This document shows, one piece after another, positions 15,404-36,039 of a stretch of 36,039 bases of DNA; positions within the stretch are counted from its first letter, which is position 1; every line of letters begins with the position of its first letter. The notes beneath the pieces are model-generated. The model was not told the origin of the DNA, ran no database searches, and saw only the letters and a list, made by a program, of their open reading frames with translations. The DNA is from Cyanobacteria bacterium bin.51. GTDB lineage: Bacteria; Cyanobacteriota; Cyanobacteriia; PCC-6307; Cyanobiaceae. A program made the translations under genes and the position numbers. The stretch is from the NCBI GenBank assembly GCA_013203655.1, contig JABMPN010000059.1:1-36039 (forward strand). Reading direction: 5' to 3'.

Positions 15404-17575
15404 ATGCCCAGCGCGCAGCGTCTCTCCGCTTTTCAGACGATTCAGGATCGTCCGGAGGCGACAACGGCCCCCAATGCCCCTCTCCAGGATCTCTGGGCCC
15501 ACGACGTCTTCGATCTGGCCAAGATGAAGGCGGCGTTGCCGAAAGAAGTCTTCAAGTCGGTACAGAAAACAATCAAGGAGGGCGGCAAGCTCGACGTTAC
15601 GGTTGCCAATGTGGTCGCCCAGGCCATGAAGGAGTGGGCAACCAGCCGCGGCGCCCTTTATTACGCCCACGTTTTTTACCCGCTTACCAACTGCACCGCT
15701 GAGAAGCACGACGGCTTCATTTCGGTTCAAGGTGACGGTTCCACCATTACCGAGTTCACCGGCAAAGTCTTGGTGCAGGGTGAGCCCGATGGTTCCTCCT
15801 TCCCCAACGGCGGTATTCGCTCCACTTTTGAGGCCCGCGGATACACCGCCTGGGACATCACCAGTCCTGCCTTTTTGATGGAAACCCCTAACGGGGTCAC
15901 CTTTTGCATCCCCACGGTGTTCATCTCCTGGACAGGAGAAGCTCTCGACAAGAAAACTCCATTGCTGCGCTCCAACGCGGCGATGAATCGCGAGGCCCAA
16001 CGCCTGCTCAAATTGATCGGTTACCAAGACGTGGCCCCGGTCAATTCAAGCTGCGGCGCTGAGCAGGAATATTTCCTGGTCGACAGCGCTTTTGTATCAC
16101 TGCGTCCCGATCTCCTTCTGGCCGGCCGCACGCTGTTCGGCTCTCCGTCGGCCAAGGGGCAGCAGTTCGACGATCACTACTTCGGCGCCATCCCCCAGCG
16201 GGTGCAGGTGTTCATGCAGGACGTCGAGCGCCAGATGTACACCCTTGGGATCCCCGCCAAGACACGCCACAACGAGGTGGCTCCCGGCCAGTTTGAGTTG
16301 GCTCCATTCTTTGAGGCCGCCAACGTGGCCACTGACCACCAGCAGCTCACCATGACGCTGCTGAAGAACACAGCCCGCAAGCACGGCATGAACTGCCTGT
16401 TGCATGAGAAGCCGTTTGAGGGCATCAACGGCTCCGGTAAGCACGTCAACTGGTCCGTGGGCAATGCCACCCAGGGCAACCTGCTCGACCCAGGCGACAC
16501 CCCTGAGAAAAACCTGCAGTTTCTGTTGTTCTGCGGTGCTGTGATTCGGGGCGTGCATCTTTATGGCCCGCTGCTGCGAGCTGTTGTCGCCACGGCTGGC
16601 AATGACCACCGCCTCGGCGCTAACGAGGCGCCGCCAGCGATCATCTCGGTCTATCTCGGCAGCCAGCTTGAAGGGGTCTATAAGCAGATTCTCAACGGAG
16701 AAGTCACCAGTTCGGTTTCCGCCGGCCTGATGCAACTTGGTGTCGATACCCTGCCTGAATTCCCCAAAGATCCCGGCGATCGCAACCGTACCTCGCCCTT
16801 TGCCTTCACCGGCAACCGCTTCGAATTCCGCGCCGTCGGCTCCAACCAGTCAGTGGCTGGCCCGCTGGTGGCGATGAACACAATTCTGGCTGATTCGCTC
16901 CGTTTCATTTCTAATGAAGTGGAGGCCAAGGTGGCCGCAGGCGAATCCCTGGAAATCGCTTCAATCTCCGTTCTTAAGGGAATCATGGAGAAGCATGGTT
17001 CTGTTGTGTTCGGCGGCGATGGTTATTCCAAGGAGTGGCACCACATGGCCGTTGAGGAGAGAGGGTTGGAAAACCTTCACAACACTGCTGAAGCTCTTTC
17101 CGTGCTGCAACGTGCTGATGTGCGTGAGTTGTTCGCCAGTGAAGGGGTGCTGAGCCCTGTGGAGCTCGAAAGCCGTTTTGAGGTTTATGCCGAGCAGTAC
17201 GTTCTGGCGATCGAAGTGGAAGCCAAAGTTGCCCTGCAGATGGCTCGCACCCAGATCTATCCAGCCGTGATGACCTATCTCGGTGATCTGGCCAGTTCCC
17301 TGAATCATCAGGAAACCTTGGGCCTCTCCCCAGACAAGGCCCTGGCCGGCAAGATTTCTGGCCTTAACCAGGAGCTGATCCAGGCCTGCACGGCCCTGGA
17401 GAACGCGATCGGTTCTGCTCCCCATGGCGAGGTTCAAGCCCACATGGATTATTGCGCCAACACCCTTCTGCCCATCATGGACACCCTCCGGACTTCCGTA
17501 GACAGCTTGGAGACGTTGGTCGACGATTCCGTCTGGCCCCTGCCCACCTACCAGGAGTTGCTGTTTTTCCGCTGA
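15404..17575 (+). CDS. glnN: Glutamine synthetase type III (GlnN)
   Basis: ATP-dependent glutamate-ammonia ligase of the large GSIII class, central to nitrogen assimilation. The 723-residue length is typical for GlnN and far above GlnA (about 470). GSIII features are visible: the N-terminal [27 protein letters not shown] (metal-binding Glu), [13 protein letters not shown], the [18 protein letters not shown] block with its catalytic loop, and [18 protein letters not shown] with the conserved Arg. In cyanobacteria glnN is generally NtcA-controlled and induced by nitrogen starvation, but no clean GTAN8TAC box is present in the 155 bp upstream. It is divergent from the 85-residue gene and convergent with recD, with 19 bp between stops. 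Confidence 0.97.
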
Positions 17576-30747: not shown

Positions 30748-31071
30748 ATGGACAGCGCCGTCGAGCAACGGATCAAGACTTTGGTTGGCAGCAGCACTGT
30801 CGTTGTCTTCATGAAGGGCACGAAGCTGATGCCGCAATGCGGCTTCTCGAACAACGTCGTTCAGATCCTCAATGCCCTGAGCGTGCCGTTCGAAACCTTC
30901 GACGTTCTCTCTGACCCGGAGATCCGCCAGGGCATCAAGGATTTCTCCGACTGGCCGACGATTCCGCAGGTTTATCTCAATGGCGAGTTCATGGGTGGAT
31001 CGGACATCTTCATTGAGATGTACAACTCCGGTGAGCTGCGCGAAACATTTGCCGTGGCCCTGGCTTCTTAG
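30748..31071 (+). CDS. grxD: Monothiol CGFS glutaredoxin (Grx4/GrxD type)
   Basis: A 107-residue monothiol glutaredoxin that binds a glutathione-ligated 2Fe-2S cluster and partners BolA. The active site is PQCGFS with Cys31. Other family marks are FMKGTK (Lys23), DWPTIPQVYLNGEFMGGSDI (the cis-Pro and glutathione-binding loop) and the C-terminal helix SGELRE. It is expected to act in iron-sulfur transfer and iron sensing in the cytoplasm. The start ATG at 30748 is preceded only by the C/A-rich tandem repeat and has no Shine-Dalgarno sequence, so translation may depend on an unstructured leader or on coupling with bolA. Confidence 0.96.
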   Translation: MDSAVEQRIKTLVGSSTVVVFMKGTKLMPQCGFSNNVVQILNALSVPFETFDVLSDPEIRQGIKDFSDWPTIPQVYLNGEFMGGSDIFIEMYNSGELRETFAVALAS

Positions 31072-31098: not shown

Positions 31099-31136
31099 GT
31101 CGGGGTAGTCCAGGGCCCTAATAAGCCCTCCCCGAC
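31099..31136. terminator. Bidirectional terminator-like hairpin after grxD
   Basis: GTCGGGG (31099-31105) pairs perfectly with CCCCGAC (31130-31136), and inside AGGGC (31112-31116) pairs with GCCCT (31125-31129), leaving a six-base bulge on one side and an AT-rich loop. It sits between the convergent grxD and the 31118 gene and overlaps the last codons of the latter. No long T-run follows on either side. Confidence 0.55.
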
Positions 31137-31387
31137 TCGTAGAGGGTGTTCAGGCCCCCTTCCGGGCCGATGAAAGACGAAGGATCGAGAATCCAGCGAT
31201 CGATCAGTTCTTCCAGACGTCGCTGCGACTGGGCGTCAAGGACGGAGGTTCGACGCAGGGCATGCAGGTAGCCATCGGCGTAGAGCCGCAGCTCCGAAGG
31301 GCTGTGATACCGGCTCACCAAGCCCTGGCAGGCATCGCAAAGCGACTGAAAGTGGCGGATGGCTTCGGGATTCTGGAGCGCGGTCAT
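31118..31387 (-). CDS. Small cyanobacterial conserved-type protein, 89 residues
   Basis: An 89-residue soluble protein, helical throughout: FQSLCDACQGLVSRYH, ELRLYADGYLHALRR, DAQSQRRLEELIDRWI. It looks like a small cyanobacterial family of unknown function, but I cannot name it reliably. The ATG at 31387 fits the composition; the longer frame to 31504 overlaps the divergent regulator gene and is rejected. It is convergent with grxD across the hairpin at 31099-31136 and divergent from the response regulator, with 84 bp between starts. Confidence 0.65.
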   Translation of the reverse strand: MTALQNPEAIRHFQSLCDACQGLVSRYHSPSELRLYADGYLHALRRTSVLDAQSQRRLEELIDRWILDPSSFIGPEGGLNTLYESGRAY

Positions 31388-31471
31388 GGCAAGGGGTCGG
31401 GAGTGGAAGCGCCGGTTAGTTCGATACCAGCCTAATAAGCGAGTAGCCTGAGTGTTCCCCATGGATGTCGT

Positions 31472-32287
31472 GTGGAGCCAAGGCCGAGCCAGAATCCTGA
31501 ACACGGTGCGTCGGTGGCCGGCCCAGCAGGGCTGGAGCGGCGTCAGGGTGCTTCAGCACTCAAGCGCATCCTTGTAGTTGAGCCCCATCCCACCCTGCGT
31601 ACCGTGCTGGCCCAGCGCCTGCGTCAGGACGGTTATCTGGCGGCTGCTGTGGCCTCTCCTGCTGAAGCGCTTCAGCTTTGTGAGGATCAGATGCCGGATC
31701 TGCTGGTCAGTGCCGAGTTGCTCGAGGAGAGTTCAGCCCTCAGCCTGGCTGCCCATCTGCGCTGCCCGGTGATGGTGCTGACGGCACGAACCGGTGCGGA
31801 TCCGGTGGTAGCGATGCTGGATGCCGGTGCCGACGACGTCCTACGCAAGCCGTTCGGCCTGGAAGAATTGGCGGCCCGTTGCCGAAGCCTGCTGCGGCGC
31901 AGTGGCAGTGGTCTGCAGGAGAGGGTCTGCGTTGGCCCCCTGGAGGTTCACCTGCTGTTGCGCCAAGTGATGTTGCGTGACCAGCCCGTCGAACTCAGTC
32001 CCCGCGAGTTTGCCTTGCTCTGCGCACTGCTGATGCCGCCGGGGATGGTTCGCAGCCGCCAGGAACTTCTGCGCATGGCCTGGCCACCGTTCAGCGGAGG
32101 CCCACGCTCCGTGGATACCCAGGTTCTCACTTTGCGGCGCAAGCTGGAGTTGGCCGGTCTTGGTGAAGGGGGAGGGATTGAAACGGTGCGCCAGCAGGGC
32201 TATCGCTTCAGCCTCGAAACCCTGCCGGACGCTAACAATTCACTGACGGACAGCCCTCCGCTGCGTCAGGTTGCCAACGCCAGTTGA
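31472..32287 (+). CDS. OmpR/PhoB-type response regulator with degenerate receiver
   Basis: A DNA-binding regulator of 271 residues from the GTG at 31472: a 30-residue non-conserved start, a receiver domain (about 31-143) and a winged-helix trans_reg_C domain (about 152-250) with SPREFALLCALL and RSVDTQVLTLRRKLE. The receiver is atypical. The phosphoacceptor Asp is replaced by Ala81 (DLLVSAELL against DLMVLDLML in OmpR), and the acidic pair after the first strand reads Glu-Pro (VVEPHP). The conserved Thr (LTAR) and Lys126 (LRKPF) remain. It therefore probably works without classical phosphorylation. No kinase gene adjoins. The N-terminal extension may be absent if a later start is used, because homology begins at LKRILVVEPHP. 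Confidence 0.9.
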   Translation: MEPRPSQNPEHGASVAGPAGLERRQGASALKRILVVEPHPTLRTVLAQRLRQDGYLAAAVASPAEALQLCEDQMPDLLVSAELLEESSALSLAAHLRCPVMVLTARTGADPVVAMLDAGADDVLRKPFGLEELAARCRSLLRRSGSGLQERVCVGPLEVHLLLRQVMLRDQPVELSPREFALLCALLMPPGMVRSRQELLRMAWPPFSGGPRSVDTQVLTLRRKLELAGLGEGGGIETVRQQGYRFSLETLPDANNSLTDSPPLRQVANAS

Positions 32288-34756: not shown

Positions 34757-35881
34757 TCAGTTGAGCCGCACCTCCAGGGTGGGGCTCACCGCATCGGGCT
34801 GCTGGGGCCCCATCGGCAGCAGCTTCAACTGGCCGCCTGTGGCGCTGAGGGCCTGGCGCAGATCGAGGGTCCGCACCCGCTGATCGCCGAAGGTCTTCCA
34901 GTTGAAGGTGAGATCCCTGAGGTTGGAGACGCTGGTCCAGGTGGTGTAGTCGGGGGTCACCTCGGCTGTGCCGGCCGGCGGCATGGCCACGCCGAGCGGG
35001 ATGTCGAAGTTGTTGAGGATGTGGAAGAGCTGGCCCACTGCCGCCGTGGTGGTGGGGCTCTTCGAGGCGTTCTGGGTGAAGAACACCATCCGCACGAAGC
35101 GCGACGGCGGGCTGAAATCTCCGGGCAGCCCCATGCCGCCGGCACCGATGCCGAAGGGGCTCAGCTTGAGCTGGCCCGCACCGGGGGCCCCGATCGTGGA
35201 AGCGGGCGCGTAGGCGCTGCTGACGGTGAGGTAGTTGGTGAGGTTGGTGAGGTGCCAGGGGAAGGTGGGCGCGTTGGTGAGCACCCGGGTGGGGTTGTCG
35301 TGCACCAGCAGACGGCCATCCCGCGGCTCAATCACGATGCTCTTGCCGTTGGCATCCTGCACCTTGAAATGCACATCGGGCACCGCCCCCAGCAGGCTGA
35401 TCACCTGGGCCGTCAGGTCCACGCCGCCCAGGCCGGCCTTCACCTCTTCCACTGTGGCGAAGTTGGCCAGCAGCCAGGTGCCCAGCTGAGCCGGCGCCAG
35501 GGTGCGATCCTGGCGCGCCCGGGCTTCAGGGGTGTATTGGGCGAAGCCGGGGAAATAGAACAGGCCCACATTGAGCCCCTTTTCGTTGAGCCCATCGAGG
35601 ATCATGTCCGCGTATTGGGCTGCGGTGGCTCCCACGAATCCGTAGCGGGAGCGATAACTCAGGCCCTTGCCCCGGCTGCTGGAGCCGGTGAAGGAGCTGC
35701 CGGCGGGCCATACGGCGATCTGGGAATCGAGCGGTTTGCCGAATTCCAGCGTGCGGCCCACCGCAACGCCCCCATCGGTGGCGGTGAGGGCTCCTCCCGT
35801 ACAGGCCAGGGCCAGGGGGGCCGTGGTCAGGGCCAGCAGGGCGGTGCTTGAGGCGGTCAGGGTGAGGCCGAGGCGCGACAT
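34757..35881 (-). CDS. Exported linear-amide C-N hydrolase (choloylglycine hydrolase family)
   Basis: A 374-residue Ntn hydrolase of the penicillin V acylase/choloylglycine hydrolase family. The N-terminus is a signal peptide (MSRLGLTLTASSTALLALTT), ending ALA before Cys27. In this family the processed N-terminal Cys is the nucleophile, so signal peptidase cleavage would directly expose it. Other family marks are GRTLEF (Arg43), DGLNEKGLNVG, VLTNAPTFPWHLTNLTNY and SRFVRMVFF. The physiological substrate in cyanobacteria is unknown; N-acyl homoserine lactones or other amides are possibilities from the family. The ATG at 35881 is chosen; the frame also stays open to 36007 with unrelated composition. 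It is upstream of crtH, 49 bp apart. Confidence 0.85.
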   Translation of the reverse strand: MSRLGLTLTASSTALLALTTAPLALACTGGALTATDGGVAVGRTLEFGKPLDSQIAVWPAGSSFTGSSSRGKGLSYRSRYGFVGATAAQYADMILDGLNEKGLNVGLFYFPGFAQYTPEARARQDRTLAPAQLGTWLLANFATVEEVKAGLGGVDLTAQVISLLGAVPDVHFKVQDANGKSIVIEPRDGRLLVHDNPTRVLTNAPTFPWHLTNLTNYLTVSSAYAPASTIGAPGAGQLKLSPFGIGAGGMGLPGDFSPPSRFVRMVFFTQNASKSPTTTAAVGQLFHILNNFDIPLGVAMPPAGTAEVTPDYTTWTSVSNLRDLTFNWKTFGDQRVRTLDLRQALSATGGQLKLLPMGPQQPDAVSPTLEVRLN

Positions 35882-36039
35882 GGTCGAGGGGGCTGCTGGG
35901 GCGGTGACTTTCAGGGAAGGTGTCACTCCTTGGCTGCCACTCAGGCGGCCGCGATTAAGTGTAGCGCGAGGATCGGATCGGGCTCCTCTGGTGGCTTGTT
36001 GATCCACACTTCTTCGGGTTGGCGCCAGCAGCGAGTGGA
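35882..36039. other. Right-edge upstream region of the hydrolase gene
   Basis: This 158-base stretch precedes the hydrolase start. It should hold that gene's promoter, but no clear -35/-10 pair is visible. A minus-strand in-frame extension of the hydrolase runs to 36007 and has non-protein-like composition. Confidence 0.35.

Follow-up and report, generated by a model that had tools for sequence, protein, structure and literature searches.

The window, meaning the whole stretch of 36,039 nucleotides of Cyanobiaceae DNA that was analysed, encodes an OmpR/PhoB-type response regulator whose receiver domain lacks both the phosphoacceptor aspartate and the second, Mg-binding acid. Its switching is probably independent of phosphorylation, because the phosphate-receiving site appears to have been lost stepwise while the protein stayed strongly conserved. 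Judged mainly by synteny, the gene is very probably the orthologue of the nitrogen and glycogen regulator NrrA/Rre37. It is referred to here as the counterpart of NrrA/Rre37 in Cyanobiaceae and not as a nitrogen-controlled NrrA, since the promoter usual for that group was not found in front of it.

The gene (Table 1), which an earlier note on this DNA had located correctly, starts with GTG and codes for 271 amino acids (aa). Relatives share the GTG start, after which comes a tail of some 30 aa that varies. Pfam recognises a receiver (Response_reg, PF00072) at residues 33–136 with 52.6 bits against a cut-off of 30.2 and a Trans_reg_C domain at residues 171–246 with 57.5 bits against 26.2, which gives the OmpR-type architecture. 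No kinase gene is adjacent, as had been noticed before, and none was found among the seven other neighbouring ORFs scanned. A search of a phage collection with the regulator gave 13 weak matches, all below 60 % identity.

Table 1 Features of the regulator locus, with positions in the window
Feature	Position	Strand	Evidence
OmpR/PhoB-type regulator with pseudo-receiver (Cyanobiaceae counterpart of NrrA/Rre37)	31472..32287	+	ORF, Pfam domains, relatives, recurring GTG start
Variable N-terminal tail, residues 1–30	31472..31561	+	unconserved across 111 loci; length varies
Pseudo-receiver domain, residues 31–143	31562..31900	+	Response_reg 33–136; 59/113 positions invariant
Codons Glu37-Pro38, at the site of the acidic (Mg-binding) pair	31580..31585	+	alignment; Pro38 111/111
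Codons Ala81-Glu82; Ala81 in place of the phosphoacceptor Asp	31712..31717	+	alignment; Ala 110/111, Glu82 111/111
Codon of conserved Thr104	31781..31783	+	alignment; 111/111
Codons from Val123 (replacing the switch Tyr) to Lys126 (the conserved Lys)	31838..31849	+	alignment; 111/111 each
Winged-helix DNA-binding domain, residues 171–246	31982..32209	+	Trans_reg_C 171–246; 83/102 positions (147–248) invariant
Divergent promoter region	31388..31471	.	upstream alignment, sequence, motif counts
DUF6761 gene, divergent neighbour	31118..31387	-	Pfam DUF6761 115.1 bits; 80/80 close loci; 42/86 outside loci
Grx4-type monothiol glutaredoxin gene, second conserved neighbour	30748..31071	+	TIGR00365 141.2 bits, cut-off 117.1; synteny

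Residue positions were set by phmmer alignments to the solved relatives PrrA, MtrA and PhoP, which are ungapped through strand 3. In them Ala81 takes the place of the phosphoacceptor Asp, and the acidic pair corresponds to Glu37-Pro38(-His39). The conserved Thr and Lys are retained as Thr104 and Lys126. The canonical phospho-switch residues of OmpR/PhoB proteins, namely the phosphoacceptor Asp and the Mg-binding acidic pair, are thus not complete in the window protein, and with Pro38 and Ala81 it lacks both residues whose absence marks a pseudo-receiver. Two further substitutions had been missed by the earlier note: the switch aromatic (Tyr) is Val123, and the proline at D+4 is Glu85.

The same state recurs across the Cyanobiaceae. 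It was counted in 111 loci, those of 119 that match at E ≤1e-40, a set in which the window's own gene occurs twice and some genomes recur. The phosphoacceptor Asp and the second acid are missing from all 111; position 81 is occupied by Ala (110 loci) or Ser (one), position 37 by Asp (93) or Glu (18), and Glu82, Pro38, Thr104, Val123 and Lys126 are each found in every locus. The segment GADDVLRKPFGLEELAAR of the receiver is nearly invariant as well. Because the state recurs in this way, the missing Asp is no sequencing accident. The divergent genus g21 has Thr at position 81 in both sampled members. Some match was obtained in all 399 genomes of the order that were searched; about 40 were without a match better than E 1e-60. 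These are almost exclusively incomplete drafts, although three have a listed completeness of 95–99 %. A Cyanobium-type copy of the locus with 84 % identity was also met in a record titled as a Bifidobacterium breve MAG, probably a mislabelled bin.

The receiver is under strong purifying selection. Against nine relatives its dN ranges from 0.004 to 0.133, with dS between 0.23 and 1.34, and the dN of the winged helix reaches at most 0.041; given this low dN relative to dS, the pseudo-receiver has been kept and is not decaying. Among 37 sequences 59 of 113 receiver positions are invariant, as are 83 of 102 positions of the winged helix (147–248), the most conserved part of the protein. The residue assignments of the earlier note (Ala81-Glu82, the Glu-Pro pair, the retained Thr and Lys126) are confirmed by the alignments and counts, and its reading of the domain as a pseudo-receiver and its statement that the winged helix is intact are supported.

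Outside the Cyanobiaceae the best matches of a class-wide search of 388 genomes lie at about E 3e-21 to 1e-41, and all 56 fetched matches, taken from the best listed, fall in one orthogroup. An outside member used as query matches 35 of 40 genomes at E ≤2.5e-70, and the next regulators listed start at 1.7e-49; five genomes (G467, G485, G455, G418 and G413) gave only matches of 1e-43 to 1e-56. In a table of 87 receivers from outside the Cyanobiaceae (one genome twice) the phosphoacceptor position is Asp in 73, Ser in seven, Glu in five and Ala in two. The second acid position is acidic in only four and lost in 83. All 87 have Ser at the Thr position and the conserved Lys, and the switch aromatic is Tyr in 86 and Phe in one. 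The earlier note had named orthologues with a normal Asp as a refutation, and on this the result is divided: none of the counted Cyanobiaceae has an Asp, but most relatives of NrrA/Rre37 type outside the family do (73/87).

Since Asp is present in most outside relatives, its loss in Cyanobiaceae is derived. The orthogroup presents stages, written here as first acid, second acid and phosphoacceptor: canonical EDD; EGD, ESD and EAD with the second acid lost; EGA, EGS and EGE with Asp lost; and EPA/DPA in Cyanobiaceae. EDD is found in all three members of family f13, which we take to be the Gloeobacter lineage from its basal place and which is the only canonical family (Glu-Asp, Asp, Ser, Tyr, Lys). 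The Asp position is Ala in 2/2 members of f11, Glu in 5/8 of f12 and Ser in 7/8 of f23 (one genome twice). Parsimony on a quick tree of 84 rows requires at least four changes for presence or absence of Asp, five by letter and two for the second acid. The Asp would accordingly have been lost three to four times within the orthogroup, a range that is given because the loss to Ala may be a single event if f11 and Cyanobiaceae are sisters. The order of events in the tree suggests that the Mg-binding acid was lost earlier than the Asp, and this loss is almost family-wide. The earlier note had recognised neither this step nor the probable identity and the nitrogen-control promoter of the relatives treated below. 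Two outside members deviate: L269 (G407) reads ADD, with Asp as the second acid but Ala in the first position, which may be a reversion, and the divergent orthologue L176 (G467, family f16) keeps the phosphoacceptor Asp but has Val-Pro for the acidic pair. The winged helix of L176 has several Cyanobiaceae-like residues, and it groups with Cyanobiaceae in the careful tree described below.

As judged from published primers, protein length and cysteine positions, the outside orthogroup is NrrA/Rre37, the NtcA-controlled regulator of nitrogen and glycogen metabolism. Rre37 (sll1330) has 250 aa with cysteines at positions 33, 66 and 116, and its cloning primers have been published (PMC4361706). With one mismatch (GTG for the introduced ATG) the forward primer matches two of five genomes of genus g84; no match was obtained in 38 genomes of family f23. 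Both matched genes code for 250 aa with Cys33, Cys66 and Cys116 and with the C-terminal residues encoded by the reverse primer, and the protein is 82 % identical to an orthogroup member. The exact reverse-primer DNA is absent from the two loci, which therefore probably belong to near relatives of PCC 6803 and not to PCC 6803 itself. This Rre37-type protein has Gly at the second acid position (VVEGNPH) and would itself count as a pseudo-receiver by the criterion used in PMC12632262, though its Asp is kept. No statement that Rre37 or NrrA is a pseudo-receiver was found in the literature searched, a body to which the original NrrA papers do not belong.

The −10 element of NtcA-activated promoters has the form TAN3T. 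In the canonical layout GTAN8TAC lies about 41.5 nt before the transcript start (PMC3898017). NtcA binds the nrrA and rre37 promoters, and Rre37 in turn binds promoters of its targets (PMC4295605). Upstream of the outside members GTAN8TAC followed by TAN3T after 20–24 nt was found in 70 of 86 regions, compared with a mean of 0.48 and a maximum of three in 100 dinucleotide shuffles; the spacer is exactly 22 nt in 55 of the 86 (shuffle mean 0.04). This usual, not universal, promoter of the group was found in none of 137 Cyanobiaceae upstream regions. When GCA is allowed for GTA, 73 of the 137 match (shuffle mean 0.18), and even this form is missing from a Prochlorococcus-titled locus, from the sampled small genomes of genus g2 and from the window's own genus. 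In the window a probable −10 element, TAGCCT, is located at 31444–31449, and the NtcA-like box is degenerate (GGT-N8-TAC at 31414–31427, 16 nt from the −10). The change of the NtcA box and the strongest erosion of the receiver thus coincide in one clade. As control promoters, two regions of glutamine synthetase in the window's genome were examined along with ten amt loci from eight genomes; they contain no GTAN8TAC with a −10 and are uninformative on the GCA form. With an NtcA box that is either GCA-N8-TAC or unrecognisable, nitrogen control in Cyanobiaceae may be weakened or replaced. The upstream element GTARCNNNNNTTACA, which is conserved, was considered as a repeat bound by the regulator itself, but an NtcA box fits it better and autoregulation is therefore not claimed.

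Taken as a whole, the best explanation, held with moderate confidence, is that the gene encodes the NrrA/Rre37 of Cyanobiaceae, that its receiver was eroded stepwise and that it works without phosphorylation under the control of its amount or of a partner. The ancestor was probably a normal response regulator, a view that the Gloeobacter-like relatives support. The early loss of the Mg-binding acid was probably followed by loss of the Asp in several lineages including Cyanobiaceae, and the promoter would have taken over from phosphorylation as the point of input. Nitrogen shortage would then set in most other cyanobacteria, through the NtcA-type promoter, the amount of a protein that is competent for DNA binding as made. 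In Cyanobiaceae the receiver may have been retained for structural reasons or for dimerisation, or because a partner binds to its surface, and the protein is presumably controlled by amount or partner. The earlier note had supposed that the protein responds to something other than phosphorylation; control by amount seems at least as likely as a new signal. It is preferred because the family has a transcriptional input and because published work stresses the amount of Rre37 (PMC4295605). A wider reading is put forward more tentatively. NrrA/Rre37 might be a pseudo-receiver protein throughout cyanobacteria except on the Gloeobacter-like branch, with the acid lost early, phosphorylation replaced by NtcA-driven abundance and the Asp shed at least three times. 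In picocyanobacteria this process might have run to its end and the NtcA box might have been altered as well; neither phosphorylation nor classical nitrogen control would then act on one of the few regulators left to the most abundant phototrophs.

Control of pseudo-receivers is an open question (PMC12632262). Instead of control by amount, the domain could directly sense a ligand or bind a partner and so switch DNA binding, as in KaiA, CikA, JadR1 and Rem, precedents reviewed in the same source. The strong conservation of the Cyanobiaceae receiver, perhaps beyond what maintenance of the fold needs, and the almost invariant segment named above would agree with this. However, no candidate pocket or partner was recognised, and apart from the genes for DUF6761 and the glutaredoxin no gene is linked throughout; an AlphaFold2 model from 37 close orthologues had a mean pLDDT of 44.9 and a pTM of 0.35, and nothing was drawn from it. 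Direct sensing is therefore rated as rather unlikely.

Redox control of dimerisation through cysteines, as in RitR or HP1021, is regarded as improbable. It would agree with the invariant Cys70 and Cys184 (both 111/111), the near-invariant Cys153 (106/111) and Cys137 (104/111) and a glutaredoxin gene as the second gene upstream. However, Grx4-type glutaredoxins usually serve Fe-S supply, Cys70 does not share its position with the receiver cysteine found in the outside group (C66 in Rre37), and no interaction between Rre37 and thioredoxin was seen in E. coli (PMC4361706). A built-in phosphate mimic, in which Glu82 locks the active state, deserves equally little credence. Glu82 is found in all 111 loci, Glu also follows the Thr in genus g21, five of the eight f12 members carry Glu at the Asp position itself, and receivers without the Asp most often have Glu in its stead (PMC12632262). 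Yet the alignment is ungapped from the conserved anchor Pro75-Asp76, which makes Glu82 the D+1 residue, so that a one-residue shift of strand 3 would be needed.

The orthology is based on synteny and not on the tree. The order in the slot is grx4, divergent DUF6761 gene, regulator. The close loci share this slot, with grx4 in 78 of 80 and DUF6761 in all; in two further Cyanobiaceae sets DUF6761 was found in 29/30 and 26/26. Among the 86 outside loci the DUF6761 gene was found in 42, always divergent, and grx4 in 27 (upstream flanks of about 1.1 to 4 kb). DUF6761 was not found named in the literature searched. Its gene keeps the divergent arrangement with the regulator in many families of cyanobacteria, and DUF6761 is a candidate for a target or a partner. 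Trees were built quickly, with a bad long row included, and carefully, after ten long rows had been removed and another 27 thinned out. The quick tree places Cyanobiaceae outside the outside group and the careful tree nests them in it, on a long branch of 2.8 changes per column. Two free trees, the careful one and the one used with the paralogue groups below, put Cyanobiaceae on the orthogroup's side of all sampled paralogues (support 100/100 and 100, respectively). In an AU test a tree that kept the outside group as a unit apart from Cyanobiaceae did slightly better than the unconstrained one (p 0.653), and trees joining Cyanobiaceae to three paralogue groups were not rejected (p 0.324, 0.172 and 0.121). 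A profile of the outside orthologues did not single out the window's near relative (176.8 bits; paralogues up to 194.5). That another OmpR paralogue occupies the same slot is improbable, as the conserved order and orientation of DUF6761, grx4 and regulator and the free trees speak against it, despite the AU results and an identity of only 37 % between the window protein and the primer-matched Rre37.

Other named regulators are ruled out by NCBIfam cut-offs, among them NblR (NF045914) with 78.3 bits against 300, RpaB (NF045944) with 99.5 against 330 and PhoB (TIGR02154) with 129.3 against 296.2. PMT9312_0717 of Prochlorococcus, likewise an orphan PhoB-like regulator of picocyanobacteria, is described near a DedA gene (PMC6365647). 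It is rejected as the same gene, for in the small genome G131 (genus g2) the distance of DedA to another regulator is about 3 kb, and to the window-type gene about 540 kb.

With NrrA (all4312) of Anabaena/Nostoc and Rre37 of Synechocystis the window protein shares the OmpR architecture, the slot with DUF6761 and grx4 in many relatives, the winged-helix signature PR(S/T)VDT(Q/H)VL(T/S)LR(R/K)K and, in part, the promoter layout. It differs in Ala for Asp, Val for Tyr, Thr for Ser and Pro instead of Gly at the second acid, in a long N-terminal tail and a long branch, and in the lack of a canonical NtcA box. RitR, ChxR, HP1043, HP1021 and the PsR domains of KaiA and CikA belong to lineages different from the NrrA/Rre37 group. 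They also have a receiver fold without key phosphotransfer residues, whereas here the erosion can be traced in one single-copy orthogroup with canonical members. NblR of Synechococcus elongatus is a cyanobacterial regulator active without phosphorylation (PMC12632262) but of a different family. Pseudo-receivers as a class and NrrA/Rre37 are already known; stepwise loss within one orthogroup and the Asp-less form of picocyanobacteria were not found in the literature searched. One orthogroup thus displays intermediate stages of receiver erosion, and its conserved promoter suggests what replaced phosphorylation. Published work on NrrA/Rre37 is predicted to concern a protein that may not be phosphorylated, and a nearly universal, unnamed regulator of Cyanobium, marine Synechococcus and Prochlorococcus receives a probable identity.

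Two other genes of the window may be mentioned. A gene of the choloylglycine-hydrolase family (CBAH, 216 bits) adjoins crtH at 34757–36007 on the minus strand; being present in the flanks of only two of 80 close relatives, it looks like a recent or sporadic neighbour. At 16043–16525 on the plus strand a partial match to the glutamine-synthetase catalytic domain (72 bits) lies in an open frame of 724 aa.
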